From contig NZ_CP033922.1 in assembly GCF_003815715.1 (NCBI RefSeq), positions 992,001 to 1,056,000 on the forward strand: DNA of 64,000 nt. Direction: 5' to 3'. The notes under the pieces were generated by a model that saw only the letters and a list, made by a program, of their open reading frames with translations, was not told the DNA's origin and did no database searches. Position 1 is the stretch's first letter. Each line of letters opens with the position of its first letter. The DNA comes from Chryseobacterium sp. G0162 (GTDB taxonomy: Bacteria; Bacteroidota; Bacteroidia; Flavobacteriales; Weeksellaceae). Positions 14,385-44,371 of the stretch are shown here, piece after piece. The translations under genes were made by a program, and so were the position numbers.

Positions 14385-14654
14385 TTATTTTCTTAATCCT
14401 AATGCAGCAATAATTGCTCTGTATCTTGCGATATCTTTTTTCTTAAGGTAATCTAGTAAACTTTTTCTCTTACCTACCAATTTCACTAGAGATCTCTCTG
14501 TGTTGAAATCGTGACGGTTAGCCTTTAAGTGCTGAGATAAGTGATTAATTCTGAAAGTGAAAAGAGCGATTTGTCCTTCTGCGCTTCCTGTGTCTTGTGC
14601 AGATTTTCCGTGTTGTGCGAAAATTTCCTGCTTTTTGTCTGTTGTTAAGTACAT
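14385..14654 (-). CDS. rpsO: 30S ribosomal protein S15 (uS15)
   Basis: The 89-residue protein has the S15 length and motifs: GSAEGQIALFTFRINHLSQHLK, RHDFNTERSLVKLVGKRKSLLDYLKKKD, and the end RYRAIIAALGLRK. S15 binds the 16S rRNA central domain and is an early assembly protein. It is transcribed alone from a strong promoter at 14690-14720. In many bacteria S15 represses its own mRNA and is co-transcribed with pnp; here the two genes are separated. Confidence 0.98.
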   Translation of the reverse strand: MYLTTDKKQEIFAQHGKSAQDTGSAEGQIALFTFRINHLSQHLKANRHDFNTERSLVKLVGKRKSLLDYLKKKDIARYRAIIAALGLRK

Positions 14655-14689
14655 TCCAATATTGTTTAATGATTATTATGTAACGGGTG

Positions 14690-14720
14690 CAAAATTACGA
14701 CTATTTTTTGAATCTGCAAA
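14690..14720 (-). promoter_or_regulatory. rpsO promoter
   Basis: On the minus strand TTTG (14720-14717) and TAATTTTG (14697-14690) are separated by exactly 19 nt, an ideal Bacteroidota sigma-A promoter. It predicts a leader of about 30 nt. Confidence 0.8.
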
Positions 14721-14827: not shown

Positions 14828-15376
14828 ATGAGAAAATTTATATTCTTTACAGCAGTTACTACTTTTTTATTCATTGGCCTTACTTCGGTAAAAGCACAAA
14901 GAAATGCTGATGATAAAATAAAGAAAGTTCTATACTTCAATCCCGAGGTAGAGCCTGATATTGATGAAATAAAGGAGCCTACCAACAATGCATTCTTTGA
15001 TGCTGTTTCCGATAACTTTAACAGTAAAAGAAATAAAATGCTTCGTGCAGAAGTTCAGGTTCCCTTTGACAGCATAGACAAACAGACTATTATGGATTAC
15101 TGTTCCAATAATGATGCTGATTTTGCCATTGTTTCCAAAGTCCGTTACTTCAAAGTTGGTTTTGGAAAATACGTGTTCTCTAATCAGGTGGTAGTAAGCA
15201 TGAAACTTTTTGGAGCAGATGGAAATCTTGTGACAGAAACAGATCATGACACTTATCGTAAAAACATGCGTCTTCTAGGTTCTACCGTAAATTCGGTGAA
15301 AATTGGTACAGAAGGTGCTATCAAAGGCATTATTAAAAAACTAAGAAAACTTAAGCCTACAGAGGCAGAACTATAG
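14828..15376 (+). CDS. Secreted hypothetical protein
   Basis: This 182-residue protein has a signal peptide (MRKFIFFTAVTTFLFIGL, cleavage near VKAQ, residue ~23), so it is periplasmic or secreted. The mature part is mixed alpha/beta with FAIVSKVRYFKVGFGKYVFSNQVVVSMKLFG, reminiscent of small CsgG-like or LPP20-like modules that form strand-rich lipoproteins, but I cannot name a family. The gene has its own promoter (TAATTTTG at 14806-14813), 15 nt ahead of the ATG, divergent from rpsO. It ends in a lysine-rich helix. Confidence 0.8.
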   Translation: MRKFIFFTAVTTFLFIGLTSVKAQRNADDKIKKVLYFNPEVEPDIDEIKEPTNNAFFDAVSDNFNSKRNKMLRAEVQVPFDSIDKQTIMDYCSNNDADFAIVSKVRYFKVGFGKYVFSNQVVVSMKLFGADGNLVTETDHDTYRKNMRLLGSTVNSVKIGTEGAIKGIIKKLRKLKPTEAEL

Positions 15377-15760
15377 CATTTAAAGTTCTAAATTCAATGT
15401 TAGGACTGCTCTTCTACCGAGCATATCATTCTATTAAAGCATTGTCTATAAGCAATTTTGATTCATAAGTGAATCATCAATGATTGCTGCATTTTCTTTT
15501 TCCCTTTTATTTCAATTCTCAAAATAAATTTGTTGTCTTTGTTCAAAAAACCCAAAGACATTCAATGATAATATATCGATCTACTGCTAAACGGTAAGGA
15601 TTCTACCTTCGATAAAATCACCTCTATTCGATTTTATTAAATCTATTCTAAACTCACAAACTATCTTGCATTTGATTGATTTACAGTTAAATAATTTCAC
15701 CAATACATGAATAATTGAAAATTATTTACTATTTTAGTCTGACAATAAAATCTAAATTAT
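15377..15760. other. Intergenic leader of the peptide cluster
   Basis: No gene is seen. The last 60 nt carry the promoter of the peptide cluster, with TATTTTAG at 15730-15737. This block is duplicated ahead of the fourth peptide gene. The rest is AT-rich sequence without clear structure. Confidence 0.5.
15715..15760 (+). promoter_or_regulatory. Peptide cluster promoter 1
   Basis: TATTTTAG at 15730-15737 fits a relaxed -7 element 24 nt before the start codon. The surrounding sequence (TGAATAATT...AAAT...TATTTTAGT...AATCTAAA) is nearly the same as that at 16342-16397, which shows a duplicated promoter. Confidence 0.55.
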
Positions 15761-15904
15761 ATGAAAAATTTAAAGAAAATCAGTAGAGAAGCCGCCAAGC
15801 AAATCAATGGTGGATTAATAGGAAAATGCAGTAGAACCAATCCATGTACTGTGGGCTGGTGTTGTAATGGTGTTTGCTCACCCCGGGCTTGTATTGAAAA
15901 TTAG
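15761..15904 (+). CDS. GG-leader Cys-rich peptide 1 (knottin-like)
   Basis: This 47-residue precursor has an 18-residue leader, MKNLKKISREAAKQINGG, ending in the double glycine expected for C39-peptidase/ABC export. The ~29-residue mature part has six cysteines in the order C-x5-C-x4-CC-x3-C-x4-C (CSRTNPC, GWCCNGVC, RAC), the spacing of inhibitor-cystine-knot peptides. Similar leader peptides in Chryseobacterium are usually labelled bacteriocin-like, without proof of activity. It is the first of five tandem members; the next starts 19 nt after its stop. No export or modification gene lies in the window. Confidence 0.85.
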   Translation: MKNLKKISREAAKQINGGLIGKCSRTNPCTVGWCCNGVCSPRACIEN

Positions 15905-15923
15905 AATCATTAAAACAAATCAC

Positions 15924-16067
15924 ATGAAAAATCTAAAGAAAATCAGTAGAGAAACCGCAAAACAAATTAATGGCGGAAAGATGGAAAGATGCAGTGATAC
16001 CAATCCATGTGTCGTGGGATGGTGCTGCAATGGAATCTGTTCACCATTCATTTGTATTGAATTCTAG
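15924..16067 (+). CDS. GG-leader Cys-rich peptide 2 (knottin-like)
   Basis: This 47-residue precursor is a close duplicate of peptide 1. The leader MKNLKKISRETAKQINGG differs by one residue; the mature part keeps C-x5-C-x4-CC-x3-C-x4-C (CSDTNPC, GWCCNGIC, FIC) but changes residues between the cysteines: KMER for LIGK and SPFI for SPRA. A longer frame beginning at 15867 runs through the end of peptide 1 in another phase; the ATG at 15924 is the true start because it restores the family leader. It is presumably co-transcribed with peptides 1 and 3. Confidence 0.88.
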   Translation: MKNLKKISRETAKQINGGKMERCSDTNPCVVGWCCNGICSPFICIEF

Positions 16068-16100
16068 CATCATTAAAACTAACTATTTAAAACAAATCAC

Positions 16101-16247
16101 ATGAAAAATTTAAAGAAAATCAATCGTCAAGAACAAAAACAAATTCAAGGCAGTGGAATCATCAAAAGATGTACAGAACATTTTGAATGTCCGGGAGGAT
16201 CATGCTGCCGAAATACATGTGTTACATATCCATGCCCATTGGAATAA
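16101..16247 (+). CDS. GG-leader Cys-rich peptide 3 (knottin-like)
   Basis: This 48-residue precursor has the leader MKNLKKINRQEQKQIQG followed by S-G, so the cleavage site is GS or SG rather than GG. The mature part retains six cysteines with identical spacing (CTEHFEC, PGGSCCRNTC, YPC) but has otherwise diverged strongly from peptides 1 and 2. A different-frame reading at 16153-16353 is spurious. A strong terminator lies 14 nt after the stop, so peptides 1-3 form one transcript. Confidence 0.85.
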   Translation: MKNLKKINRQEQKQIQGSGIIKRCTEHFECPGGSCCRNTCVTYPCPLE

Positions 16248-16260
16248 ACCAGAAACTAAC

Positions 16261-16286
16261 AGCGCCTATTTCAGGCGCTTTTATTT
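16261..16286 (+). terminator. Terminator of peptide genes 1-3
   Basis: AGCGCC and GGCGCT pair around a 7-nt loop, followed by TTTTATTTAT. It separates the first three peptide genes from the next two. Confidence 0.85.
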
Positions 16287-16341
16287 ATACAAAACAATAA
16301 AAATCAAATACTTATTTTCGAATAAAAATTTTCACTATCAA

Positions 16342-16397
16342 ATGAATAATTAGAAAATATTTATTATTTTAGTATAACATTTTAAATCTAAAAAACT
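16342..16397 (+). promoter_or_regulatory. Peptide cluster promoter 2 (duplicate of promoter 1)
   Basis: TATTTTAG at 16365-16372 lies 26 nt before peptide gene 4. The stretch around it repeats the sequence before peptide gene 1 almost base for base, so promoter and gene were duplicated together. Confidence 0.55.
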
Positions 16398-16547
16398 ATG
16401 AAAAATTTAAAGAAACTCAACAGAGAAGCTGCAAAACAAATCCAGGGAGCAGGCCCTAAAAAATGCATTGACAATTCACAATGTATTTATGGAGCTTGCT
16501 GTAAAGGTGTATGTATGGAATTTGCCTGTATTGATGATAGAGAATAG
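16398..16547 (+). CDS. GG-leader Cys-rich peptide 4 (knottin-like)
   Basis: This 49-residue precursor has leader MKNLKKLNREAAKQIQG-A-G, then a mature part with C-x5-C-x4-CC-x3-C-x4-C (CIDNSQC, YGACCKGVC, FAC) and an acidic end DDRE. It follows its own promoter, a duplicate of that before peptide 1. The leader is highly similar to peptides 1-3, whereas the inter-cysteine loops share almost nothing but an aromatic or glycine before CC. That is the pattern of a family under diversifying selection on the mature part. Confidence 0.85.
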   Translation: MKNLKKLNREAAKQIQGAGPKKCIDNSQCIYGACCKGVCMEFACIDDRE

Positions 16548-16577
16548 TATTTTATTAACATTTTAAAATCAATTCTC

Positions 16578-16751
16578 ATGAAAAATTCAAATCTTAAAAA
16601 GCTCAGCAGAAAGGAGCAAACAGAAATAAAAGGGAGTCTGCAAGTGAAAAAATGCAGAAACACCTACCCTACGTGTGATCCTGGTGAATGCTGTACCGGA
16701 GGTTTCTGTCTTCTCTCCCCTATTACAGAATGTGAACCTATTCTTGATTAA
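16578..16751 (+). CDS. GG-leader Cys-rich peptide 5 (knottin-like, divergent)
   Basis: This 57-residue precursor is the longest and most divergent of the five tandem members. The leader MKNSNLKKLSRKEQTEIKGS has an insertion and ends in GS. Six cysteines remain, with spacing 6-4-0-4-7 (CRNTYPTC, DPGECCTGGFC, ITEC), still within the range of cystine-knot loops. The gene lies 30 nt after peptide 4 and is followed by a terminator, so 4 and 5 form a second transcript. Confidence 0.82.
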   Translation: MKNSNLKKLSRKEQTEIKGSLQVKKCRNTYPTCDPGECCTGGFCLLSPITECEPILD

Positions 16752-16779
16752 AAGGATATTTTTTAAATTTAATTTTTGA

Positions 16780-16806
16780 ACATCCGCTTCGGTGGGTGTT
16801 TTTTTA
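16780..16806 (+). terminator. Terminator of peptide genes 4-5
   Basis: ACATCCGC TTCG GTGGGTGT forms an 8-bp stem (with wobbles) capped by a UUCG tetraloop and followed by a T run. Confidence 0.85.
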
Positions 16807-16911: not shown

Positions 16912-18234
16912 TTGAATTCTAGAGACGAACTTATCTTCAACCCTGCCGATATTGCCGAAACTCTCAGCGAACTTCCAGCTGACGAGCGGCTGCTCGCGTT
17001 TCTGAAGGTTCCGAAAGAGTACAAAGCGGAGGTCTTTTCTCATCTTGATCCAGATTTTCAGGAAGATACAATCAGAAGTATCGGAAGCGACGAGGTTTCC
17101 GAAATTTTGAATGCCATGACTCCTGATGACAGGACTGCTCTTTTTGAGGACTTTCCTGATGAATTGATTAAGTATTCAATCAATCACCTTAATCCACAGG
17201 AGAGAAGGATTGCCTTAAAACTATTAGGTTACAACTCGGATTCTATTGCCCGTCTGATGACCCCTTATTACATCCAGATCCGTAAGGAATGGAGCGTAAA
17301 AAGATGTCTTCAACAGATCAAAAAGGTAGGAAAAAGAGTAGAAACTATGAACTACCTATATGTAGTAGACGAAAGAAATCGTCTGATTGATGACCTTGCC
17401 ATCGGTACATTATTATTAGAGGAGGAAGATACTTTGGTTTCTGATATTACAGATAATCACTTTGTAGCAATTACCACCACAACGTCAAAAGAGGATGCGG
17501 TAACGTATTTCGAAAAATATGACCGTGGTGCATTACCTATTATTACGGAAGCTGGAGTTTTAGTGGGAATTGTAACCATTGATGATATCCTTGACCAGAT
17601 TGAACAACAAAACACCGAGGATATTCAGAAGTTTGGGGGATTGGAAGCACTAGACCTTCCCTACACTCAAACTTCATGGACAGAAATGATTAAAAAAAGG
17701 GCAACGTGGCTGATTATTTTATTCGTTTCCGAAATGCTGACTGCCTCTGCAATGGGATATTTTGATAAAGAAATTGAAAAAGCAGTAGTTCTTGCCTTAT
17801 TTGTCCCATTGATTATTTCCAGTGGTGGTAACTCAGGATCACAGGCTGCAACATTGATTATCCGTGCGATGGCCCTTCAGGAGATCAACCTTAAAGACTG
17901 GTGGTATGTGATGAGGAAGGAAATCATCTCCGGATTATGTCTGGGTGCTATTCTGGGACTTATCGGTTTTATCAGAATTATGCTGTGGCAGAAAGTTGGC
18001 CTTTTTGATTATGGCCAATATTGGGTATATGTAGGACTCAGTGTATCTGTTTCTTTGATTGCAATTGTGCTATGGGGAACTTTATCAGGGTCTATGATTC
18101 CGTTTGTTTTAAAGAAGTTAAAGCTAGACCCCGCAACATCTTCTGCTCCATTTGTAGCAACCTTAGTAGATGTTACCGGATTAATCATCTATTTTACAGT
18201 AGCTGGATTTTTCTTAACCGGAAAACTTCTCTAG
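16912..18234 (+). CDS. mgtE: Magnesium transporter MgtE
   Basis: This 440-residue Mg2+ channel has an N-terminal MgtE domain (about 10-125), two CBS domains (about 130-255, with [17 protein letters not shown] and [22 protein letters not shown]) and a C-terminal five-helix pore (about 280-440) with the signature [16 protein letters not shown]. The N and CBS domains sense cytosolic Mg2+ and close the pore. An in-frame stop lies just upstream at 16897, and no ATG exists before residue ~60, so translation must begin at the TTG at 16912. A -7-like TATTTTTG at 16882-16889 would give a leader of only ~16 nt. Confidence 0.95.
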
Positions 18235-18456: not shown

Positions 18457-18681
18457 ATTTAAAATTTCTTTTGGTTAATTTTCCTACTCTATAAGCTTTT
18501 CGGATAACGCTATTATCTGTCATCCAAAATAATAAATTAATCAATACCAATCACTCATTAGTGAAAATTTAGCAATACATACTTGAAAATATCCCCGTAT
18601 TCCAAACCATTCAATTCAAATTAAAAGCAAATTAACCTCAGTTCTTACCCTAAAACTTATATAATTTCATATCTTTAAAAT

Positions 18682-30962: not shown

Positions 30963-31442
30963 TTATTTGGATACCTTTCTTTTTGAAACCTTAGTATTTT
31001 TTTTTATTGGATATTTTTTATTGTCAATAGACAACAAAAAATTTTTCGGAAGATTATTTTCTATTTTCCCGTTTTCATCTTTATAGAGCGTCTCATCTTT
31101 GGTTAATATCCAATTGTTATATTTAGGGAAATAGGTGTATTCTTGTATATATTCTGTATCAGCAGAGGCATCATACAATATAATACATCCGGGGCCACAA
31201 TTACTGATAACAGGAGAAGAGACATAATTTAAATTAAAATTATAATTCTTTTTTGATTTACCCAGTACCAAAGTCGCTTTACAGGTCGGCTCGTTAATCT
31301 CCTTAATTTCTCCAACCTTATAACATTTATACATAAGAGTGTCATCAATTTTATCATTATTAAAATCCCCTACAACCTCCTGAGCTGAGAAAAAGGTAGA
31401 TAAAAATACTATACTTAATATATTAATTTTCTTTATCATCAT
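30963..31442 (-). CDS. Secreted protein, candidate immunity protein of the GH19 effector
   Basis: This 159-residue protein with a signal peptide (MMIKKINILSIVFLSTFFSAQ) is exported. The mature part starts VVGDFNNDKIDDTLMYKC, a DxNxDxxDD calcium-loop-like motif as in FG-GAP or dockerin repeats, then a beta-rich region with SNCGPGCIILY. Its start overlaps the end of the PAAR/GH19 effector by 20 nt, so the two are translationally coupled. Periplasmic localization and coupling fit an immunity protein against a peptidoglycan hydrolase. No family name can be given. Confidence 0.7.
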   Translation of the reverse strand: MMIKKINILSIVFLSTFFSAQEVVGDFNNDKIDDTLMYKCYKVGEIKEINEPTCKATLVLGKSKKNYNFNLNYVSSPVISNCGPGCIILYDASADTEYIQEYTYFPKYNNWILTKDETLYKDENGKIENNLPKNFLLSIDNKKYPIKKNTKVSKRKVSK

Positions 31443-32781
31443 ATTCCTGTATTTCTTTTTTGTTTTTTTCTCTTTTCCCCCACTTGGTGTCTTTTATGGC
31501 ACTTGTATCGTAAGTATAAACTCCCAGATTTTCTATTTTCTGATTTTTACAGTTATCCTTTACTTTCATATTCTTCAAAATCCTTTTTAGGTTTTCCTTT
31601 CTATGTGTAAATCCTGTCAATCCTCCATTTACCCCAACTGCTGCTGAGATAAAATCATCGGTATCAGCAAATTTATTCAAATCACCCCATGATGAGCGTT
31701 CTCTCCAGTACCATGCAGCCGAATTACATACATGTTCCAAATCATTGGCTACAATATCCGGGTCCTGAGTGTCCGGTTTCTTGATCTTTGCAAAATATGC
31801 TTTATAAGTATCTTTCCATGTTAGCTGAATTAATCCTCTTCCCTTATATTTCGGACCGTCTCCTTTTGTATCGTTCTCACGGCTTAAGCATTCAAGATAC
31901 CTGTTATGACCTCTCAATATTCGGGCCGTACCATTTTCTTTATATTTTATCTTATCTTTTTTGAATAAGAGGTATTTATTATAATTTTCAAGATGCGTGG
32001 TAGGGTCGTAATCCCAGCCATCAGCATATTCTAAGGTGGTATCCAGTCCTGTTTCCGCTTCCACCTGTGCCAGAAAATGAGCTTTACGAAGACAACTGTT
32101 TATATCATTATCTTTCATGGCTTTATTCAGTGCCTTTGTGAATTCTGTATAGCTTTTCTTATCCTCTGGCAATGGACAGTTTTTAGCTGTAAATAATTTC
32201 TTTGAGTTATAAAACCCTTTAATATCTTCTTCTGTAAATTCTTTCTCGCAATAGCATTTTTTATCTTCCTCCGGATCCGGTACAGGTGCCCCTTTTCCAT
32301 CAATACTTTCCGGAGCATTGACCTGTCCGGAGGTTACAAATTCTATTTTTCCTGTCTCAGGCGGTATGTTACCTGGCATTTTGCCTGTTCCCGGTAAAGT
32401 GGATTTTTTTAACAGCACATAGTTTTCCTGAACTTTTGCAGTTCCAAAATCCTGCCACTCTGTAAGAGAAATCATCTGAAAGCCATCATCAAAGATAAAA
32501 TTGGGGATCTGTTTTTCTACTACAGTCCCGGTAAGTTTGTCTTGCGTGGTCGGTACATTATTCAACACTTTGAATGTTCCCAAATGCGCATTGAATTTAA
32601 TTTTTGCTCCATCTATAGCCAACAATAGACCTTCTTCAGTTTTATCCTTCTCTTCATTTTTTGCACGTTGATCGTCCAGTTTTTTACTGTTCTCTGCCTT
32701 CTGTTGCTCATTATCCTGAGCAGGAGCCTGATTCTGAGTTTCAGGAGTATTTCCCTCTCCTTCATTCTTTACCCTATCCAT
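31423..32781 (-). CDS. T6SS effector: PAAR-like (DUF4280) domain fused to GH19/lysozyme-like domain
   Basis: This 452-residue protein has an acidic, Gln-rich N-terminal linker (1-50), a DUF4280/PAAR-like domain (about 52-135, LLLAIDGAKIKFNAHLG then the hydrophobic-edged VLLKKSTLPGTG), a Pro/Glu linker with CYCEKEFTEEDIKG, and a C-terminal chitinase class-I-like/lysozyme domain (about 215-410). The latter carries FLAQVEAETGLDT (catalytic Glu region) and GRGLIQLTWKDTY. PAAR-like DUF4280 tips replace or cap VgrG in Bacteroidota T6SS. The whole is probably a spike-loaded cell-wall hydrolase. It follows the adaptor-like gene with a 13-nt overlap. Confidence 0.8.
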   Translation of the reverse strand: MDRVKNEGEGNTPETQNQAPAQDNEQQKAENSKKLDDQRAKNEEKDKTEEGLLLAIDGAKIKFNAHLGTFKVLNNVPTTQDKLTGTVVEKQIPNFIFDDGFQMISLTEWQDFGTAKVQENYVLLKKSTLPGTGKMPGNIPPETGKIEFVTSGQVNAPESIDGKGAPVPDPEEDKKCYCEKEFTEEDIKGFYNSKKLFTAKNCPLPEDKKSYTEFTKALNKAMKDNDINSCLRKAHFLAQVEAETGLDTTLEYADGWDYDPTTHLENYNKYLLFKKDKIKYKENGTARILRGHNRYLECLSRENDTKGDGPKYKGRGLIQLTWKDTYKAYFAKIKKPDTQDPDIVANDLEHVCNSAAWYWRERSSWGDLNKFADTDDFISAAVGVNGGLTGFTHRKENLKRILKNMKVKDNCKNQKIENLGVYTYDTSAIKDTKWGKREKNKKEIQEYDDKEN

Positions 32782-33473
32782 AATAATGAATGTTTTAAAT
32801 GAGAATTTTGTTTTTTAATTTCTATGAAACCTTCTTCATATCGATCTTCCTTCCAGACAAACAACCCTCTGAATTGTTCAATGTTTGATTCTTCCAGGTT
32901 TTCGGCAGATATTTTCAAAGCCAATATATTCCCGTCTTTTACAGGATTTATGATTTCTGTAAAGCCTTCGGAAGATTCTCTTTTCATTTTAGTATCAAAT
33001 GAATTCAATAAGCCATTAAAAAGCAATCCAAACATTTTATAACTTCCTAAAAAGACGATCAGCTTTGTCTCATCCTCCAACAAATCACTGATCTGGCTGA
33101 AATAGCGGTCTACAGCATCGCCTTTATGCGTCTCAGACAAATGTGCCTGAATTTTTGCCCATCTTAACCGTAAGAAAAGTAAATTATCTATTGCGGTAAT
33201 ATTCCCTTCATCATCTACCCTGCATTCTATTTCATCAAACAGATAGCTTATTTTTTTAATAAATTTTCCCATTGCATCTTCATCATCAGAAAAATCAAAT
33301 TCTACCACCAAAAGCTGAAACCGATATTCTTCCTTTACTTTTCCAAGGTAGTAGACCTCAACCTGCCTGGCATAGCTTTTGGTGATTTTGTAAGCAGGAT
33401 TTTTCTGTTCGGTTACAATGTTTTCCAGTCTGTACGTTTTCTGATGGAAGTTCTGCAATATATTGGGTATCAT
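32769..33473 (-). CDS. T6SS-linked hypothetical protein, possible adaptor
   Basis: This 234-residue cytosolic protein has an acidic middle (FDFSDDEDAMGKFIKKISYLFDE) and a mostly alpha/beta C-terminus ending SHLKHSLLWIG. There is no signal peptide. It lies between two T6SS effectors, 2 nt after the lipase gene and overlapping the PAAR/GH19 gene by 13 nt, so it is likely a chaperone or adaptor that loads the PAAR effector. No named adaptor domain (DUF1795, DUF2169, DUF4123) is recognised. Confidence 0.6.
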   Translation of the reverse strand: MIPNILQNFHQKTYRLENIVTEQKNPAYKITKSYARQVEVYYLGKVKEEYRFQLLVVEFDFSDDEDAMGKFIKKISYLFDEIECRVDDEGNITAIDNLLFLRLRWAKIQAHLSETHKGDAVDRYFSQISDLLEDETKLIVFLGSYKMFGLLFNGLLNSFDTKMKRESSEGFTEIINPVKDGNILALKISAENLEESNIEQFRGLFVWKEDRYEEGFIEIKKQNSHLKHSLLWIG

Positions 33474-33475
33474 AT

Positions 33476-35308
33476 TTAATATATTATTCTTTGATAATCA
33501 TTATTGGGATCCATTCCCATCCAGTCTCTGTTGGCCGACCAGTGAAGGTATTGCTTACGTATAATCCGTAATAATGTTTGCGGATGATAAGCGGTAACCG
33601 TCACTTCTTCCAATGTTGTCGTTTTCATTTTATTCCCGTTTTCATCCAACTTTTCTTCAGGAGGTTCTTGCGGATCAGGTTCCTGTACTGGCTCAGGATG
33701 TAGCAGTCTTTGCAATGCTTTCTCTTGTTTTTCTTTTTCAACCTGTTCATCAGATTTGAAATCCCATTTACCATCATTCTCAAATACATAGCCATGTAAA
33801 AGATCTTTTGCATGAGGCAAATATTTATCATTTTCTATGGAAAAAGTAGTCTCTGTTTTCGTCATTAACTGGTGATCGTACAGATTTTCACCATGTTCTT
33901 CCATAAAATGCAAAGGGATATAGCTGTATTCTTTCCTTAGAAATCGGGTTCCGGTTATTTTACGGTACACCCCTCCTAAGGTAAGGACATTCAGGAAGCT
34001 ATTATTGATTTCGATCTGATTACCATCAAACCAATATTCATCAATCAGTTGTTGTCTGCGTTTATTGAGAAACCATACGGGTTTGTGATTGGAAGTTTCT
34101 ATTTCATCCACTTTCTCTGTTCCGTTTTCATAAGCACCACCAATATCGCAGTGTACTCCGGAAAATTCTTTTTCAATACTTCCCGGAAACTTCGTTAATG
34201 AAAAATTTTCCCGGTGCTCATTGGCTGCTGTAAAATGAACAGCCTTAAAGTAAGGCCCCGGATTTTTGAGCTGTAACTGCTCTATATCATCTCCGAAATT
34301 GTATTTAGGTCCTAAAGCAGAATGCTTCATCCCTTCCCATCCTACACGTCTGAGCCCTCCCATATCACCAAATTCTTCATAAGAAGATACCGTATCATAT
34401 ACCCCGATAAAACGAACATCAAGATCTAAGTCTTCAAGTTGTTGCTCAGATAAAACTTTTTTACTTAAAAGATAATATCCCAGAAAACCAAATTTTGGAA
34501 GTTTACCATCTTTGATATATTTCGGATCTACTTCAATATTATCTTTATCTATCCAGATATCTCCATATTCAGGAATCGCTGCCGGACCATAAGGAGAATT
34601 AACCTGAGTATATCCTATGATCTTTCTCGATTTTTTGATCTCAACATCTTTGGGTCTTTTATTTCCATTGATTTCGTAAGCAAAATTTCTTGCAGCAGCA
34701 GCTCCACGACTAAACCCAAAAGTATCAATGGTAATTTTCATTAATTTTACTTTACCATTTGTCTCAGCAATAAGTTTTTTAATGCGGTCAGCGGTCATTT
34801 CACATCCTTTCCTTACTTTCCCCCGCACTCCGGTTTTACCGGACCCATATTGAAATCCATCATCTACATCTCTGTTATTATCCAGTGTTCCGATTCCTTC
34901 TACATACACTCCATAGGTAGTCTGTTGGCAACATTTATACATTCTGGCGACATTGGTATAATCGTTACTAAAACTATTATCAACCCCCTTTTTATCCAAC
35001 CATCCCTGATGGCTAGATTTAAGATACTGATGATATTCAGAATTATCATCCAGCATCTTTTTCTTTTTCAGTCTTTCATATTCTTCTTCCTGTAAGATTC
35101 TTGTCTCTTTAATTGCCTTTTCTTTTTCCTTGATCTGATCATCCGTATCAGTACTGCTCATTTTATTCTTTCCATCCCTGTAATCCATCCTTAATTCGCT
35201 GTTTTTCAAATTATTCAGAGTACCATCAAAGAATACTCCGAATTCCAGATACAGCTCATCTAGAGGAGTTTTAGGATTGCCTGTGTTGTATACAAAAGTT
35301 TTTCCCAT
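33476..35308 (-). CDS. T6SS lipase effector, Tle1-like DUF2235 protein
   Basis: This 610-residue protein matches the DUF2235 (Tle1) alpha/beta hydrolase group. VFFDGTLNN near residues 25-33 and GFSRGAAAARN (Ser200 as nucleophile) are diagnostic; Asp305 in FIGVYDTVSS and a His in GVHCDIGGAYE complete a likely triad. A charged coiled insertion (residues 55-90, EKEKAIKETR...) precedes the core. The C-terminal quarter is Pro- and Glu-rich with a terminal extension. Tle1 proteins are phospholipases delivered by T6SS against membranes. There is no signal peptide, as expected. A DUF2931 lipoprotein precedes it. Confidence 0.82.
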   Translation of the reverse strand: MGKTFVYNTGNPKTPLDELYLEFGVFFDGTLNNLKNSELRMDYRDGKNKMSSTDTDDQIKEKEKAIKETRILQEEEYERLKKKKMLDDNSEYHQYLKSSHQGWLDKKGVDNSFSNDYTNVARMYKCCQQTTYGVYVEGIGTLDNNRDVDDGFQYGSGKTGVRGKVRKGCEMTADRIKKLIAETNGKVKLMKITIDTFGFSRGAAAARNFAYEINGNKRPKDVEIKKSRKIIGYTQVNSPYGPAAIPEYGDIWIDKDNIEVDPKYIKDGKLPKFGFLGYYLLSKKVLSEQQLEDLDLDVRFIGVYDTVSSYEEFGDMGGLRRVGWEGMKHSALGPKYNFGDDIEQLQLKNPGPYFKAVHFTAANEHRENFSLTKFPGSIEKEFSGVHCDIGGAYENGTEKVDEIETSNHKPVWFLNKRRQQLIDEYWFDGNQIEINNSFLNVLTLGGVYRKITGTRFLRKEYSYIPLHFMEEHGENLYDHQLMTKTETTFSIENDKYLPHAKDLLHGYVFENDGKWDFKSDEQVEKEKQEKALQRLLHPEPVQEPDPQEPPEEKLDENGNKMKTTTLEEVTVTAYHPQTLLRIIRKQYLHWSANRDWMGMDPNNDYQRIIY

Positions 35309-35318
35309 AGTTTTGTTT

Positions 35319-36401
35319 TTAGAAAACCTCTACTTTATCAGTCTTTATAAAGGCTTCTTTACCATTTTCACCTCTTAGCTTTATTGTGAAATAGCTGTTA
35401 GCCTCATTAACCTTAACGATAATGTCCGCTTTAGTTGAATCAGGATCATCACCAAACACTGCTTTAAAAGCTTCCAAACCTGAGTTTTCATTCAGGTCAC
35501 AGTGAGCACCATACATTTTATGATCCGCTCCTATATAGTCAAACATAATCCTTACCGGGATGGCTCTTTGTTCATTTACTGCCAATATGTTTTTTGCCGT
35601 GTCAAATTGTTCTTTTTCTCCATTAATTGTAGATACCTTAACATTAACTAATGAATTGAGCTTGGCATTTTCCGGCAGCTCGAAAACAGGTTTCCAGCTG
35701 TATCGGATTCTATAGGTATCCCATAAACCAAATGGAATAGCTTTTCCTTTATTTTTTTCTTTTACCTCTGCAGGGATAACCTTACCATTATTAAACACAT
35801 CATCAAGGTAATCTTTCCTCCAGAAACGGTTCTGATGGCTATCCAACTGGGCAATTTCTGATTCCGGAATTGTTACTTTTTTAGCCTGATACCGTCCTAC
35901 TTCCTTCTGAATTCCGACGCCGGCTATCCAAACTACTACTACACCTCCGGGAGCCATTCCAACGCCAATTTCATCATAATTTAAATGTTCAGTCTCACCA
36001 CTTCCATTCGTCACTTTTGTTTCATACCCTTTACTGAAGTATTCTTTAATTTTAGCAATATCAATGGTAGTATCGATCATGTAAAACTGGTTTTCCATAT
36101 AAGATATCCATACAAAATCCAGTCGGGAAGGAAGACTTTTAAAACCATTTCCCATCCCATGATTGATGGAGCCCCAGGCACCATTTCCAGGTATCATCCC
36201 AAAGCCTAAACTTACCCATTCTCCACCTTCACATTCTATCCCTCCTTTATATACTTCCATCGGATATCCCAGAGGAGCAGAAGTTCCTTCAGTCCATTCA
36301 TATTTTGTCATAGTTTCAGTTTTTTTAGGAGCTTTTTTTTCCTGACACGACATCTGGGTAAAAAATAAAAAGCTTAAGAGATATTTTAATATTTTATTCA
36401 T
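35319..36401 (-). CDS. DUF2931 lipoprotein, candidate immunity to the Tle1-like lipase
   Basis: This 360-residue protein has a lipoprotein signal (MNKILKYLLSFLFFTQMSC, lipobox MSC with Cys19), then DUF2931-like sequence: WVSLGFGMIPGNGAWGSINHG, PSRLDFVWISYMENQFY and GVGMAPGGVVVVWIAG. DUF2931 lipoproteins commonly accompany T6SS and phospholipase effectors. Located 10 nt upstream of the DUF2235 lipase in the same operon, it is a good candidate for periplasmic lipase immunity. It is long for the family (usually about 200-250 aa), so it may be a fusion with a second beta domain in the C-terminal half. Confidence 0.75.
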   Translation of the reverse strand: MNKILKYLLSFLFFTQMSCQEKKAPKKTETMTKYEWTEGTSAPLGYPMEVYKGGIECEGGEWVSLGFGMIPGNGAWGSINHGMGNGFKSLPSRLDFVWISYMENQFYMIDTTIDIAKIKEYFSKGYETKVTNGSGETEHLNYDEIGVGMAPGGVVVVWIAGVGIQKEVGRYQAKKVTIPESEIAQLDSHQNRFWRKDYLDDVFNNGKVIPAEVKEKNKGKAIPFGLWDTYRIRYSWKPVFELPENAKLNSLVNVKVSTINGEKEQFDTAKNILAVNEQRAIPVRIMFDYIGADHKMYGAHCDLNENSGLEAFKAVFGDDPDSTKADIIVKVNEANSYFTIKLRGENGKEAFIKTDKVEVF

Positions 36402-36474
36402 TCTTACAATCTTATAAAGTAATTATGTACTCCACTACCATACATAATTAATTTTTACACAACAATTTCTGTTT

Positions 36475-36774
36475 TCAAGAGCATAGTCGGGGAACTATAA
36501 TTAACAGGATCACGGATATGATGATAAAACCTATACCCCCTGAATAGATACCGAATAATGTAAAATCACCTATCCCTTTTTTCTTCTTCTGAGCTGCTAT
36601 TATAAATGGCAGAAAAAACAATACGGGTAGAAAAGCACCGCAAAGCCATACAGCCAACCAGCCGCAATCACCGTCACTATACCCGGTAAGATCCATAACA
36701 CTTAATGTAATGATACCAGTGAGGATGACAAAAACTACAGATAAGAACAGAGCAATAAGTCCTTTTTTCAACAT
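36475..36774 (-). CDS. Small membrane protein in the T6SS island
   Basis: This 99-residue protein has three hydrophobic helices (about 5-30, 42-64 and 75-97) with KKKKG in a cytoplasmic loop and a DLTGYSDGDCG external loop. I do not know its family. It starts 4 nt after the VgrG stop and precedes the DUF2931/lipase pair by 70 nt. It may be a second immunity component guarding against membrane attack or a stabiliser of the apparatus; the context alone cannot decide. Confidence 0.6.
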   Translation of the reverse strand: MLKKGLIALFLSVVFVILTGIITLSVMDLTGYSDGDCGWLAVWLCGAFLPVLFFLPFIIAAQKKKKGIGDFTLFGIYSGGIGFIIISVILLIIVPRLCS

Positions 36775-36778
36775 ATAT

Positions 36779-38638
36779 TTATCCTTTATTCACTTTGGCA
36801 TCTATCTTCCCTAGCATTTTAGCCACTCCCGAGCTTTGTAACAAAATGTCGCCATTCTTTGCTTTATGAGTGGTTGTGGAAGTAGTTTCTTTCAAATCAC
36901 CCGTTACATTAATGGTTTTATTTTCATTAATGGTCTGTTTATAATTCCTTGAAGTAAACTTATGGTTATTGGTAATATTAATGGCGTTATCATTTCCTAC
37001 CGTGGTCTTCATATCCTGTCCAACATTTATGGTAAGATTTTCCCCTGCATTGAATGTCATATTCTTTGGAGCTGTCACGATGATATTTCCTTTTCCATCC
37101 ATGAAATAATTATTTCCACTAGGATCAATGATGGTAACACTTCCTTCAGCATCATTCATCAAAACCCGGATTCCACTTCTTGTCTGTATGGATTTTAAGT
37201 GATTATCCACACCACCTCCCATAGCTGTACCACCATGAAACATTCCGCCCATGACAAAAGGACGGTCCGGATGATTGTGTACAAAACCTACCATTACCTG
37301 ATCTCCTACTTCAGGGATGGCTACATATCCTCTGTTTTGAGTGATCTGATCTGTTCCTCCGGCATCGGGAGCCATCATTCGTATAAAATTGGTAGTATCA
37401 TTCAGCTGCCAATCGAATCTTACGGTAACTCTTCCCTGCCCCAGCGGATCTGTATTGGATATAACTGTTGCGATCTGAGGTTCTGCAATGGGCAGTGTAA
37501 AATCCGGAGTCGGAATATACCCTGTATCTGAAGCGATCGCCTCAAACCTTCCTTTATAACGCCCCAGTGTATCTACTTCATGAGTCACTTCTGTGACCAT
37601 CAGTTTGGTAAAATAAGAGGTTTGATTACTGTCGGTTTTCCGCATTTTGATGTCCGCAACACATCCCGGATGTAAAAACGGGATGGTAGTCCCTCCTGAA
37701 ACGGTAAAAACATCAACCGCTCTGCTTCCGGCAGTACTGGTTTGAGAAATCACCACGTCCATATCGGTGGCTGCCTTTATAGGAGCAACCTGCAATGATG
37801 AAGTCTTAAAGATTTTATCGTTATTCTGATAGGCTGTTTTTGCCAGATTTCCTACATGTTTAATGGGAGTTTCTCCTGAAATAAGTTTCGTATTGGAACT
37901 GCTGTTATATCCATAAAATCGAGGCTTGATATGAACAGCTTTCATTTCTACATTAATATCAGAAACATTGCTTCCATAGATGAGTTCTACAGCTTTATTT
38001 TGAGGCGGCATATTTCCGAAATGAAGGATTTCACCGTCATAAAAGAATTGCTCACCATAAGCTTCTGCCATTCTGCAAAGATAATTGTAGTGGGTCTCGT
38101 TGTATTGGGAACTGTAAAGAATCTGAGCAGATGCTTTAGCATTCACTTTTACATCAAATTTACTGTTTTCGATCCCTTGTTTTATAACGTCGGTAGCAAT
38201 AATTCCCATATTGACAGGCTGGTCACCCCCAAAACTTTGGGTATGAGGAGCAGCATCCAAAAGAATGGTGGGGCTGTATCCTTTCAGGACAATATTTCCA
38301 AGACTGTGATTTTCCTGACTGAATCCTACTTTTGTAATAACCCCTACAAAAGTTCTTTCAGGGCTTCCTTCTACATCTTTATATTTAAAAACTACAGTCA
38401 AACGTTTTCCTAAAAACTGCTGAGCTTCTTCCAGATCATGGTTTTGTACCCCATCTAAGGTATCATGTGCCAATGTCAGTTCAAAATTATGGTGTTTCTT
38501 TACACTCTGCTGTAAGCGGAAGTGTTTGAAATGTTTGAGTATTTTGCCTTCAATCACGATATCCAGCTTCACCACACGGTTGATTCCAGGAATATGATTC
38601 TCCGAAATCTTTTCGGAATTCGAGGTATTTTTATTCAT
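36779..38638 (-). CDS. vgrG: T6SS spike protein VgrG (TssI)
   Basis: This 619-residue protein has a phage gp27-like N-terminal part (about 25-370, including GDQPVNMGIIATDVIKQGI and SSQYNETHYNYLCRMAEAYGEQFFYDG), a gp5 OB-fold (about 385-465, PLGQGRVTVRFDW and QNRGYVAIPEVGDQVMVGF) and a beta-helical needle (about 490-610) with repeated strands such as ITVN, TINVG and TINVTG. The needle tip would carry the DUF4280/PAAR protein. It is the first gene of the effector operon downstream of hcp. The C-terminus has no effector extension. Confidence 0.93.
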   Translation of the reverse strand: MNKNTSNSEKISENHIPGINRVVKLDIVIEGKILKHFKHFRLQQSVKKHHNFELTLAHDTLDGVQNHDLEEAQQFLGKRLTVVFKYKDVEGSPERTFVGVITKVGFSQENHSLGNIVLKGYSPTILLDAAPHTQSFGGDQPVNMGIIATDVIKQGIENSKFDVKVNAKASAQILYSSQYNETHYNYLCRMAEAYGEQFFYDGEILHFGNMPPQNKAVELIYGSNVSDINVEMKAVHIKPRFYGYNSSSNTKLISGETPIKHVGNLAKTAYQNNDKIFKTSSLQVAPIKAATDMDVVISQTSTAGSRAVDVFTVSGGTTIPFLHPGCVADIKMRKTDSNQTSYFTKLMVTEVTHEVDTLGRYKGRFEAIASDTGYIPTPDFTLPIAEPQIATVISNTDPLGQGRVTVRFDWQLNDTTNFIRMMAPDAGGTDQITQNRGYVAIPEVGDQVMVGFVHNHPDRPFVMGGMFHGGTAMGGGVDNHLKSIQTRSGIRVLMNDAEGSVTIIDPSGNNYFMDGKGNIIVTAPKNMTFNAGENLTINVGQDMKTTVGNDNAINITNNHKFTSRNYKQTINENKTINVTGDLKETTSTTTHKAKNGDILLQSSGVAKMLGKIDAKVNKG

Positions 38639-38819
38639 ATTAATGCAAGGTGTTTGACAGGCTTTTATTTTCAGAAAAAAAATCTAAAAAATAATATCCT
38701 TTCTATAAAATTATAAATTTTTTACAATATAAAATCCACTTTTACCCGATTTATTTTAACAATTACAGAAAACTGATAAGAGTATTTTTCTGGATTCTGA
38801 CTTATTCATCAGAGCCAAA

Positions 38820-38854
38820 AAAACAGAACAGTATCTATTGTACCATTCTGTTTT
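38820..38854 (-). terminator. hcp terminator
   Basis: AAAACAGAA and TTCTGTTTT pair across a 17-nt loop; on the minus strand the stem ends in TTTTTTTTGG. It separates hcp from vgrG. Confidence 0.6.
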
Positions 38855-38887
38855 ATATGTACTTGATTTTTTTAAGTGACCAGGTTC

Positions 38888-39295
38888 TTACGCGCTAGGC
38901 CAAGCTCCGTGATAAGCAGAGTTCCCCAGATCAATCTGTTCTGCACTTACAACAAAAGTAATATACATACTGTTTTCGTCTACTGCATCGAAGTCTACTT
39001 CGTGCTGAATCACGTATCCATTCTGCCACTTTAATGTTGTTAATGTTCCTTCTTCGTGAGATTTATTGAAGGTAATTTCTCCTACAGTTGGCTTGTACTT
39101 TCCGTTCAGCAAGCTTTCAAGAATGTCTGATTTTTCTGTTGCTTCCACTGTGATTTTGATAAGAGCGTTAGAAGGATCTGATGCTACACGTCCTGAAACG
39201 TCTGTAGATCTTGATACGCTGTAGTTAAGCTTTAATAATTTTTGTCCTTCTCCGTTGTTGAATTTTAAAATTCCTCTTGAATTTCTTTCTGCCAT
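38888..39295 (-). CDS. tssD: T6SS tube protein Hcp (TssD)
   Basis: This 135-residue protein has the Hcp-like beta barrel of Bacteroidota T6SS subtype iii: MAERNSRGILKFNNGEGQKLLKLNYSV, GRVASDPSNALIKITVEA, and GEITFNKSHEEGTLTTLKWQNGYVIQHEVDFDA. It stacks as hexamers into the tube inside the sheath and can itself carry effectors. It stands alone on a strong promoter (39346-39353) and ends in a terminator, as expected for the abundant tube protein. It lies about 24 kb from the sheath gene tssC. Confidence 0.9.
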   Translation of the reverse strand: MAERNSRGILKFNNGEGQKLLKLNYSVSRSTDVSGRVASDPSNALIKITVEATEKSDILESLLNGKYKPTVGEITFNKSHEEGTLTTLKWQNGYVIQHEVDFDAVDENSMYITFVVSAEQIDLGNSAYHGAWPSA

Positions 39296-39345
39296 GATTG
39301 TAAATTTTAATCGTTAATATTGTGTGATTTGTTGTTTTATATCAC

Positions 39346-44207: not shown

Positions 44208-44371
44208 TTAGATTCTAACACAAACACATTGACAATCATCTGAAAATTCAGGATCACAATATTCTATGCTGTAACATCTTAATTGTTAGGTCCACATTTC
44301 GGATAATCCATAATTCCACCCCCCTGTACTGCTTTTAGTTGTTCTCTTGATACTTTTTTCAAATTTTTCAT
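44208..44371 (-). pseudogene. GG-leader Cys peptide 8, frameshifted
   Basis: The ATG at 44371 opens MKNLKKVSREQLKAVQGG (leader) then GIMDYPKCGPNN and hits TAA at 44281-44279. Moving the frame by one base immediately after CGPNN gives RCYSIEYCDPEFSDDC and QCVCVRI to a stop at 44210-44208, restoring a six-Cys mature part. One missing T (AAT-TTA-AGA read as AAT-TA-AGA) would explain this. It is either a recent inactivating deletion or a sequencing error in a run of repeats. The leader and Cys pattern tie it to the peptide family at 15761-16751. Confidence 0.75.

Follow-up and report, generated by a model that had tools for sequence, protein, structure and literature searches.

A conserved array of cysteine-rich leader-peptide genes in Chryseobacterium sp. 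G0162, with a candidate C39 exporter and VKOR-thioredoxin oxidase elsewhere in the genome

Among described systems, the bacteroidetocins appear closest to the peptides considered here. As described in the accessible part of PMC6671954, these class II-like bacteriocins of Bacteroidetes carry a double-glycine (GG) leader, their system includes a thiol oxidoreductase besides the C39 transporter, they kill Bacteroidales, and they have no evident immunity gene; their target, according to the accessible part of PMC8546649, is BamA. Here we describe an array of five small leader-peptide genes in a stretch of 64,000 nucleotides from Chryseobacterium sp. G0162 (contig NZ_CP033922.1, positions 992,001 to 1,056,000), referred to below as the window; positions are those of the window unless a genome position or one of our numbered loci (L034 and so on) is named. 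The array belongs to a peptide system that is real and conserved but has been little described, and the sequences make a strong circumstantial case for oxidation and export of its products. The explanation that we prefer, with moderate confidence, is that these would be guided by their leader through a C39-ABC-HlyD exporter and oxidised by a VKOR-thioredoxin protein, giving miniproteins that are probably antagonistic and most likely knotted.

The five genes, open reading frames (ORFs) that start with ATG, encode precursors of 47-57 residues on the plus strand between 15761 and 16751 (Table 1). Coordinates, lengths and the GG, GS or GA endings of the leaders all agree with what an earlier note on this DNA had claimed, and so does the cysteine spacing: peptides 1-4 have the pattern C-x5-C-x4-CC-x3-C-x4-C (5-4-0-3-4, after the residues between successive cysteines) and peptide 5 has 6-4-0-4-7. 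With six cysteines placed at random in a mature part of 29-31 residues, the 5-4-0-3-4 pattern has a chance of 1.4-1.7e-5 per peptide. With regard to family assignment, peptides 1-4 pass the 23.5-bit cut-off of NF047798 (leader_Chryseo, "bacteriocin-like protein"), while the leader of peptide 5 falls below it (17.5 vs 23.5 bits). What this model and the array peptides share is an 18-residue leader, and the 18 positions of the model describe the leader alone. None of the five belongs to NF047792 (CCPGW family putative bacteriocin), their scores of 13.7-18.5 bits staying below its cut-off of 80. The mature parts matched no NCBIfam or Pfam model above cut-off; below it, peptides 2 and 3 gave Pfam matches to conotoxin models (E 0.022-0.1) and to Bacteriocin_IIc and Sar8_2 (E 0.26-0.27). 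Nine close homologues are from Chryseobacterium wherever an organism is named, and a profile of the peptide 5 class matched 83 proteins among 955 candidates, the named ones being from Chryseobacterium or Elizabethkingia. The leader family is already known and, as far as our searches show, the mature parts are unstudied, judging by the open-licence literature, in which we found no paper that deals with the array peptides, with their exporter or with a knottin from Chryseobacterium.

When genome contigs were scanned with a profile, 109 relatives were confirmed, of which the best 80, in 78 loci, were kept; loci L131-L160 were scanned and left out of the counts. Since the search profile was seeded with the leader stretch, the 78 loci share the leader by construction. 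They hold 282 distinct leader peptides, with the spacing 5-4-0-3-4 in 139, 5-4-0-4-7 in 41 and 5-4-0-4-12 in 15, so that the conserved spacing, whose absence from relatives would have counted against the reading of the earlier note, was indeed found. In all 53 related array loci (L053-L105) mgtE lies downstream of the array, and in 52 of them the gene for the 182-residue protein lies upstream, the remaining one, L083, starting near a contig end. The number of knottin-pattern peptides per array locus ranges from one to eight. Because the neighbours are constant while the copy number changes, the array can be described as a fixed address with changing membership.

The ratio of non-synonymous to synonymous substitution rates (dN/dS) was 0.092 for leaders and 0.131 for non-cysteine codons of mature parts in the nearest disjoint pairs (84), and 0.089 and 0.181, respectively, in random pairs at 70-90% identity (66); the mature value is 1.4-2.1 times that of the leader, and as pairs were picked at at least 70% protein identity, dN is biased downwards. 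The proportion of synonymous differences in mature parts (pS, 0.37-0.58, values above 0.5 being near saturation) is far above that of non-synonymous differences (pN, 0.06-0.17), which shows that the genes are real; together with the address kept in every array locus, it rules out an ORF artefact. Mature parts evolve faster than leaders but are under purifying selection, and no positive selection was found in them among pairs of at least 70% identity. The term "diversifying", which the earlier note had used for the family, is valid only for the paralogues, which are many, vary in copy number and have the faster mature parts, since mature parts of orthologues are conserved at dN/dS 0.13-0.18. 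A phage origin was also considered and rejected: scans of three of the five peptides gave a best E of 0.15 and no useful family, and the flanking genes are fixed.

The genome encodes two C39 proteins. One of them, about 0.77 Mb from the array (L034), belongs to an operon that follows directly on grasp-with-spasm ATP-grasp and SPASM genes, encodes a 502-residue VKOR-thioredoxin protein (domains VKOR and Thioredoxin_4) and a leader peptide, and then continues with the C39-ABC transporter (Peptidase_C39 and ABC), a second leader peptide and an HlyD protein (HlyD_3). The C39 exporter that the earlier note had wished to see searched for is thus present twice, and once in an operon with leader_Chryseo peptides. 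The grasp-with-spasm maturases before the operon come with a likely two-cysteine precursor, and a LanB-like protein (by reading) lies further up (L034 7542-10787 and 744-2936). In each of the first ten genomes among the matches listed (10 of 10), the C39 gene directly neighbours the VKOR gene at a distance of about 345 nt, and the exporter is, among the matches listed, mostly 88-99% identical to the G0162 copy while the presumed cargo varies. Between these two genes, Chryseobacterium sp. OSA05B (L106) carries a leader peptide with the knottin-type pattern 5-4-0-4-12, and C. daecheongense (L112, domains by reading) carries such a peptide plus a second leader peptide. The other C39-ABC transporter (L044 8346-14866, minus strand, about 4.03 Mb) stands in a row with LanC-like and LanB-like genes (by reading) and is the less likely carrier of the array peptides, as no leader_Chryseo match was found in the surrounding 20 kb. 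A match to the DUF805b RNA, described below, lies near it, at genome position 4033220.

The leaders fit much of the pattern that C39 peptidases recognise, which the accessible part of PMC6363468 gives as Leu(-12), Glu(-8), Leu(-7) and Val(-4), followed by GG, GA or GS. In 68 leaders of the own genome, L, I or V occupies -12 in 66, L or M occupies -7 in 56 and Glu occupies -8 in 28; positions -4, -2 and -1 carry no independent weight, having partly served to set the cleavage site. The five array leaders all have I or L at -12, I at -4 and a GG, GS or GA end, and two of the five have Glu at -8. Among array-type peptides, L or I is found at -12 in 192 of 193.

Leader peptides and oxidase also occur together across the genus. 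Of 148 genomes, 139 have the oxidase and 136 have leader peptides, the latter being found in 136 of the 139 oxidase-bearing genomes and in none of the nine without it (Fisher 3e-12, uncorrected for shared ancestry). The exporter, in its close form (E of 0), is distributed similarly, in 135/139 genomes with the oxidase vs 1/9 without (Fisher 9e-10, likewise uncorrected); the one genome in the latter group is 75% complete, and its oxidase gene contains stop codons. Of the oxidase hits in the 139 genomes, one, in a peptide-negative genome, is weak (1.2e-34) and another is partial (2e-99). Five of the nine oxidase-free genomes have only a more distant C39, a number to be read with the limited candidates scored per genome in the surveys (7, 10 and 56; 29 in the phylum sample), which make peptide numbers lower bounds and may let a C39 be missed. 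In the phylum sample of 296 genomes, leader matches at E 5e-4 occurred in 13, namely six Chryseobacterium with four to at least 29 matches each and seven others with one to three each.

The array makes up a small fraction of a genome-wide repertoire of at least 68 leader peptides. At E up to 1 the own genome gave 76 matches to the leader; 45 exceed the cut-off, a single one of them only together with its in-frame neighbours. Of the 76, 68 peptides were read, including all 45, and the eight left out lie below cut-off (E 0.007-0.94). The number of cysteines in the mature part is even and non-zero in 66 of the 68 and in 53 of 55 frameworks, in about 33 clusters. Both exceptions exceed the cut-off, which leaves 43 even numbers among those 45 peptides. 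Such strong parity across many unrelated frameworks is what paired cysteines would give. The 282 peptides of other loci comprise 274 with an even non-zero number, seven with an odd number and one with none, and as they mostly have the knottin pattern they are not independent. One exception in the own genome is a 30-residue leader_Chryseo peptide in the window (44279-44371, minus strand), possibly shortened, which has a single cysteine and the best leader score of the genome. The other, at genome position 2621760 (L039), has five cysteines, for which intermolecular pairing or a free thiol is possible; it is a true exception to parity, since its family keeps five cysteines in L119, L126 and L127.

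We infer the following pathway. The five genes would give precursors with a leader of the double-glycine type, which may be recognised through the leader helix and cleaved after GG, GS or GA. Export would proceed through the C39 peptidase-ABC transporter and HlyD adaptor of the distant operon, an exporter that the array peptides would share with the whole repertoire. Three disulfides would form from the six cysteines, with the VKOR-thioredoxin protein encoded beside that exporter as the probable oxidase, and the predicted product is a miniprotein of 29-37 residues, most likely with the knottin connectivity C1-C4, C2-C5, C3-C6. The description of the peptides as exported and disulfide-rich in the earlier note is thereby well supported by inference, namely from the leader, the content of the exporter operon, the even cysteine numbers and the co-occurrence.

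Several observations weigh against this explanation. None of the five array leaders has Leu at -7, where A or Q is found instead, and Q or A occupies this position in 176 of 193 array-type peptides, making it the weakest link between array and exporter. The models of peptides 4 and 5 have moderate confidence. Foldseek returned only four rows for the two models, comprising three distinct chains and none significant, and of six weak sequence-profile matches two are cystine knots and none is significant. In favour of a knot, all four Foldseek rows are cystine-knot peptides. With regard to the fold, the cysteine order C-C-CC-C-C and the loop lengths agree with the range of inhibitor cystine knots (ICKs), as given in the earlier note. 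However, loop lengths in the main class (3-5 residues) are also close to those of TxVIIB (2-4), which has this framework yet adopts a mini-granulin fold, and AlphaFold gets disulfide connectivity wrong in the study of that peptide (PMC11035057, accessible part). It is therefore possible, if less favoured, that the products are exported three-disulfide miniproteins of another kind, not true ICKs but some other compact fold or a mini-granulin, which has a single beta-hairpin and the connectivity of either an ICK or a granulin; the two short adjacent strands in both models also suit this. It is opposed by the weak Foldseek rows, all four of them cystine knots, and by the longer last loop (7 or 12) of related classes in arrays or the exporter operon. 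The knottin assignment in the earlier note is plausible: the loop lengths fit and the weak fold matches are all cystine knots, though none of them is significant and the short loops would suit a mini-granulin as well.

As to their role, the array peptides are probably antagonistic to neighbouring cells, as bacteroidetocins are, and it is this precedent that makes antagonism our leading guess. They might instead be secreted signals or envelope helpers, acting in cell-cell signalling or metal handling, which we regard as rather unlikely. The purifying selection at dN/dS 0.13-0.18 and the fixed address beside mgtE in 53/53 array loci would suit such a conserved function, and no candidate immunity gene was seen between the array genes (by reading); yet bacteroidetocins, though toxins, also lack an evident one according to the accessible part of PMC6671954. 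One to eight copies per array and 68 peptides in 55 frameworks per genome would moreover be unusual for a signal, and no receptor gene was noticed by the array, as judged by reading only. An improbable variant of antagonism is that the targets are eukaryotes, with the peptides acting as protease or channel inhibitors against protists, fungi or animals. The weak profile and fold neighbours do include venom and plant-inhibitor knottins, but none of these neighbours reaches significance, sharing a scaffold does not imply sharing a function, and it is bacteria that are killed by the closest functional precedent, which also has a thiol oxidoreductase and a C39 transporter (PMC6671954, accessible part). 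Very improbable is a ribosomally synthesised and post-translationally modified peptide whose leader recruits an ATP-grasp/SPASM or lanthipeptide-type enzyme and whose cysteines are used otherwise, for example in thioethers: the exporter operon is indeed immediately preceded by grasp-with-spasm maturases (TIGR04192, TIGR04193), and a LanC-like gene (by reading) adjoins the other C39 transporter, but no such enzyme was noticed by the array in the ORF lists (the domain scan covering the two flanking proteins only), even cysteine numbers in 66/68 peptides point to cystines, and in L112 an opposite-strand hydrolase-like gene, not a maturase, precedes the oxidase (by reading).

Scattered peptide genes share an upstream element, which is the DUF805b RNA (Rfam RF02914). 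The own genome has 14 matches at E below 1e-6, nine of them just upstream of leader peptides (two in the exporter operon); of the other five, the three that were read lie before genes of other kinds, including two for small secreted-looking proteins with four cysteines each (L170 1556-1822 and L179 1556-1837), which hints at a wider set of secreted peptides under this element. No match above cut-off was found in 14 control genomes. In 24 loci of other species, chosen from the 78, all 14 matches (in eight loci) start at a distance of 51-57 nt upstream of a leader-peptide ATG; matches in other species include L107, L113 and L117, some at exporter operons. The element is absent from the array in the window and from ten of ten array loci tested. 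We know of no function for DUF805b, and in the open-licence literature we found no paper on it, nor any title on DUF805 that concerns RNA.

Table 1. Positions of the array genes, their flanks and related elements; coordinates refer to the window except for the last row
Feature	Position	Strand	Remarks
182-residue protein, upstream neighbour	14828-15376	+	kept in relatives
Upstream region, putative transcript 1 (75 nt examined)	15686-15760	+	bears TATTTTAG-type -7-like box
Peptide 1 precursor, 47 residues	15761-15904	+	leader ...INGG; Cys 5-4-0-3-4; NF047798 34.3 bits
Peptide 2 precursor, 47 residues	15924-16067	+	leader ...INGG; Cys 5-4-0-3-4; NF047798 34.3 bits
Peptide 3 precursor, 48 residues	16101-16247	+	leader ...IQGS; Cys 5-4-0-3-4; NF047798 32.3 bits
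Terminator-like hairpin after putative transcript 1 (genes 1-3)	16261-16279	+	
Upstream region, putative transcript 2 (75 nt examined)	16323-16397	+	closely resembles upstream region of transcript 1
Peptide 4 precursor, 49 residues	16398-16547	+	leader ...IQGA; Cys 5-4-0-3-4; NF047798 32.0 bits; modelled
Peptide 5 precursor, 57 residues	16578-16751	+	leader ...IKGS; Cys 6-4-0-4-7; NF047798 17.5 bits; modelled
Terminator-like hairpin after putative transcript 2 (genes 4-5)	16778-16801	+	
mgtE, downstream neighbour	16912-18234	+	kept in relatives
Further leader_Chryseo peptide, 50 residues	18304-18456	-	four Cys 3-8-6; outside array
DUF805b RNA (RF02914) before the 50-residue peptide	18481-18513	-	40.9 bits, gathering 35.6
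Further leader_Chryseo peptide, 62 residues	22915-23103	-	four Cys 8-15-6; outside array
DUF805b RNA in exporter operon locus	L034 12448-12481 and 14957-14989		

It is plausible that array genes 1-3 and 4-5 form two transcripts, as the earlier note had proposed. The two terminator-like hairpins favour this, the scan having returned five such sites on both strands vs 0.8 expected in shuffles. A scan for sigma-70 type promoters found none on the plus strand. Intergenic gaps in the 53 related arrays are bimodal (11-55 nt or 132-341 nt). A -7-like box is present 30-39 nt upstream of the ATG at 102 of 111 unit starts, including the two in the window, a count made without a shuffled control, and 97 of the 102 boxes lie 31-37 nt upstream. 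The upstream neighbour of the array gave no family in a Pfam scan at E 0.001. Beyond it, an S15-Flavobacteria ribosomal protein leader (14652-14697, minus strand) precedes an rpsO-like gene, and it was found upstream of mgtE arrays in ten of ten loci tested. Elsewhere in the window (about 31400-39300, minus strand) lies a cluster that, by reading, resembles parts of a type VI secretion system, with a VgrG-like protein of 619 residues and a tube-like protein of 135 residues.

The label "bacteriocin-like protein" conceals a system, namely a large set of probably oxidised miniproteins behind one exporter. If this holds, knottin-like scaffolds would be available from a bacterial source that is amenable to genetics, peptide export would be seen naturally paired with a disulfide oxidase, and the DUF805b RNA would gain a candidate role; the origin of cystine knots in bacteria becomes a testable question as well. 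More tentatively, and with some doubt on our part, Chryseobacterium may have evolved a venom-like arsenal independently of animals and plants, with dozens of leader-tagged cystine miniproteins per genome in many cysteine frameworks, true ICKs among them, served by one conserved C39 exporter and a dedicated VKOR-thioredoxin oxidase coupled to it, and with DUF805b marking part of the set and the operon.

Compared with known systems, the array stands apart in several respects. Laterosporulin (named in PMC6024828) and the defensin actinomycesin (PMC8819291) resemble the array peptides as disulfide-stabilised bacterial peptides. They have defensin-like folds and not the C-C-CC-C-C order of knottins. 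The mini-granulin conotoxins, represented by TxVIIB (PMC11035057), share the cysteine order and very short loops with the array, but the array loops reach 5-7 residues, and 12 in relatives, and the array is known from sequence and models. Knottins such as conotoxins, spider toxins, squash inhibitors and sponge asteropsins resemble the array in having six cysteines, in cysteine order, in loop lengths and as its weak profile and fold neighbours, whereas the array is bacterial, has a leader of the double-glycine type and gives no significant sequence or fold match to them. The bacteroidetocins have in common with the array system a short GG-type leader, a cysteine-containing peptide, a C39 peptidase-ABC transporter and a thiol oxidoreductase (PMC6671954, PMC8546649). 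In contrast, bacteroidetocins A and B have four cysteines in a mature part of 42 residues, where the array peptides have six in a knottin pattern, and they are encoded in a four-gene region (transmembrane protein, peptide, thiol oxidoreductase and C39-ABC), where the array is flanked by the 182-residue protein and mgtE with its exporter unlinked. The array system further differs from them in that a single genome encodes dozens of the peptides and in its fusion of VKOR to thioredoxin.
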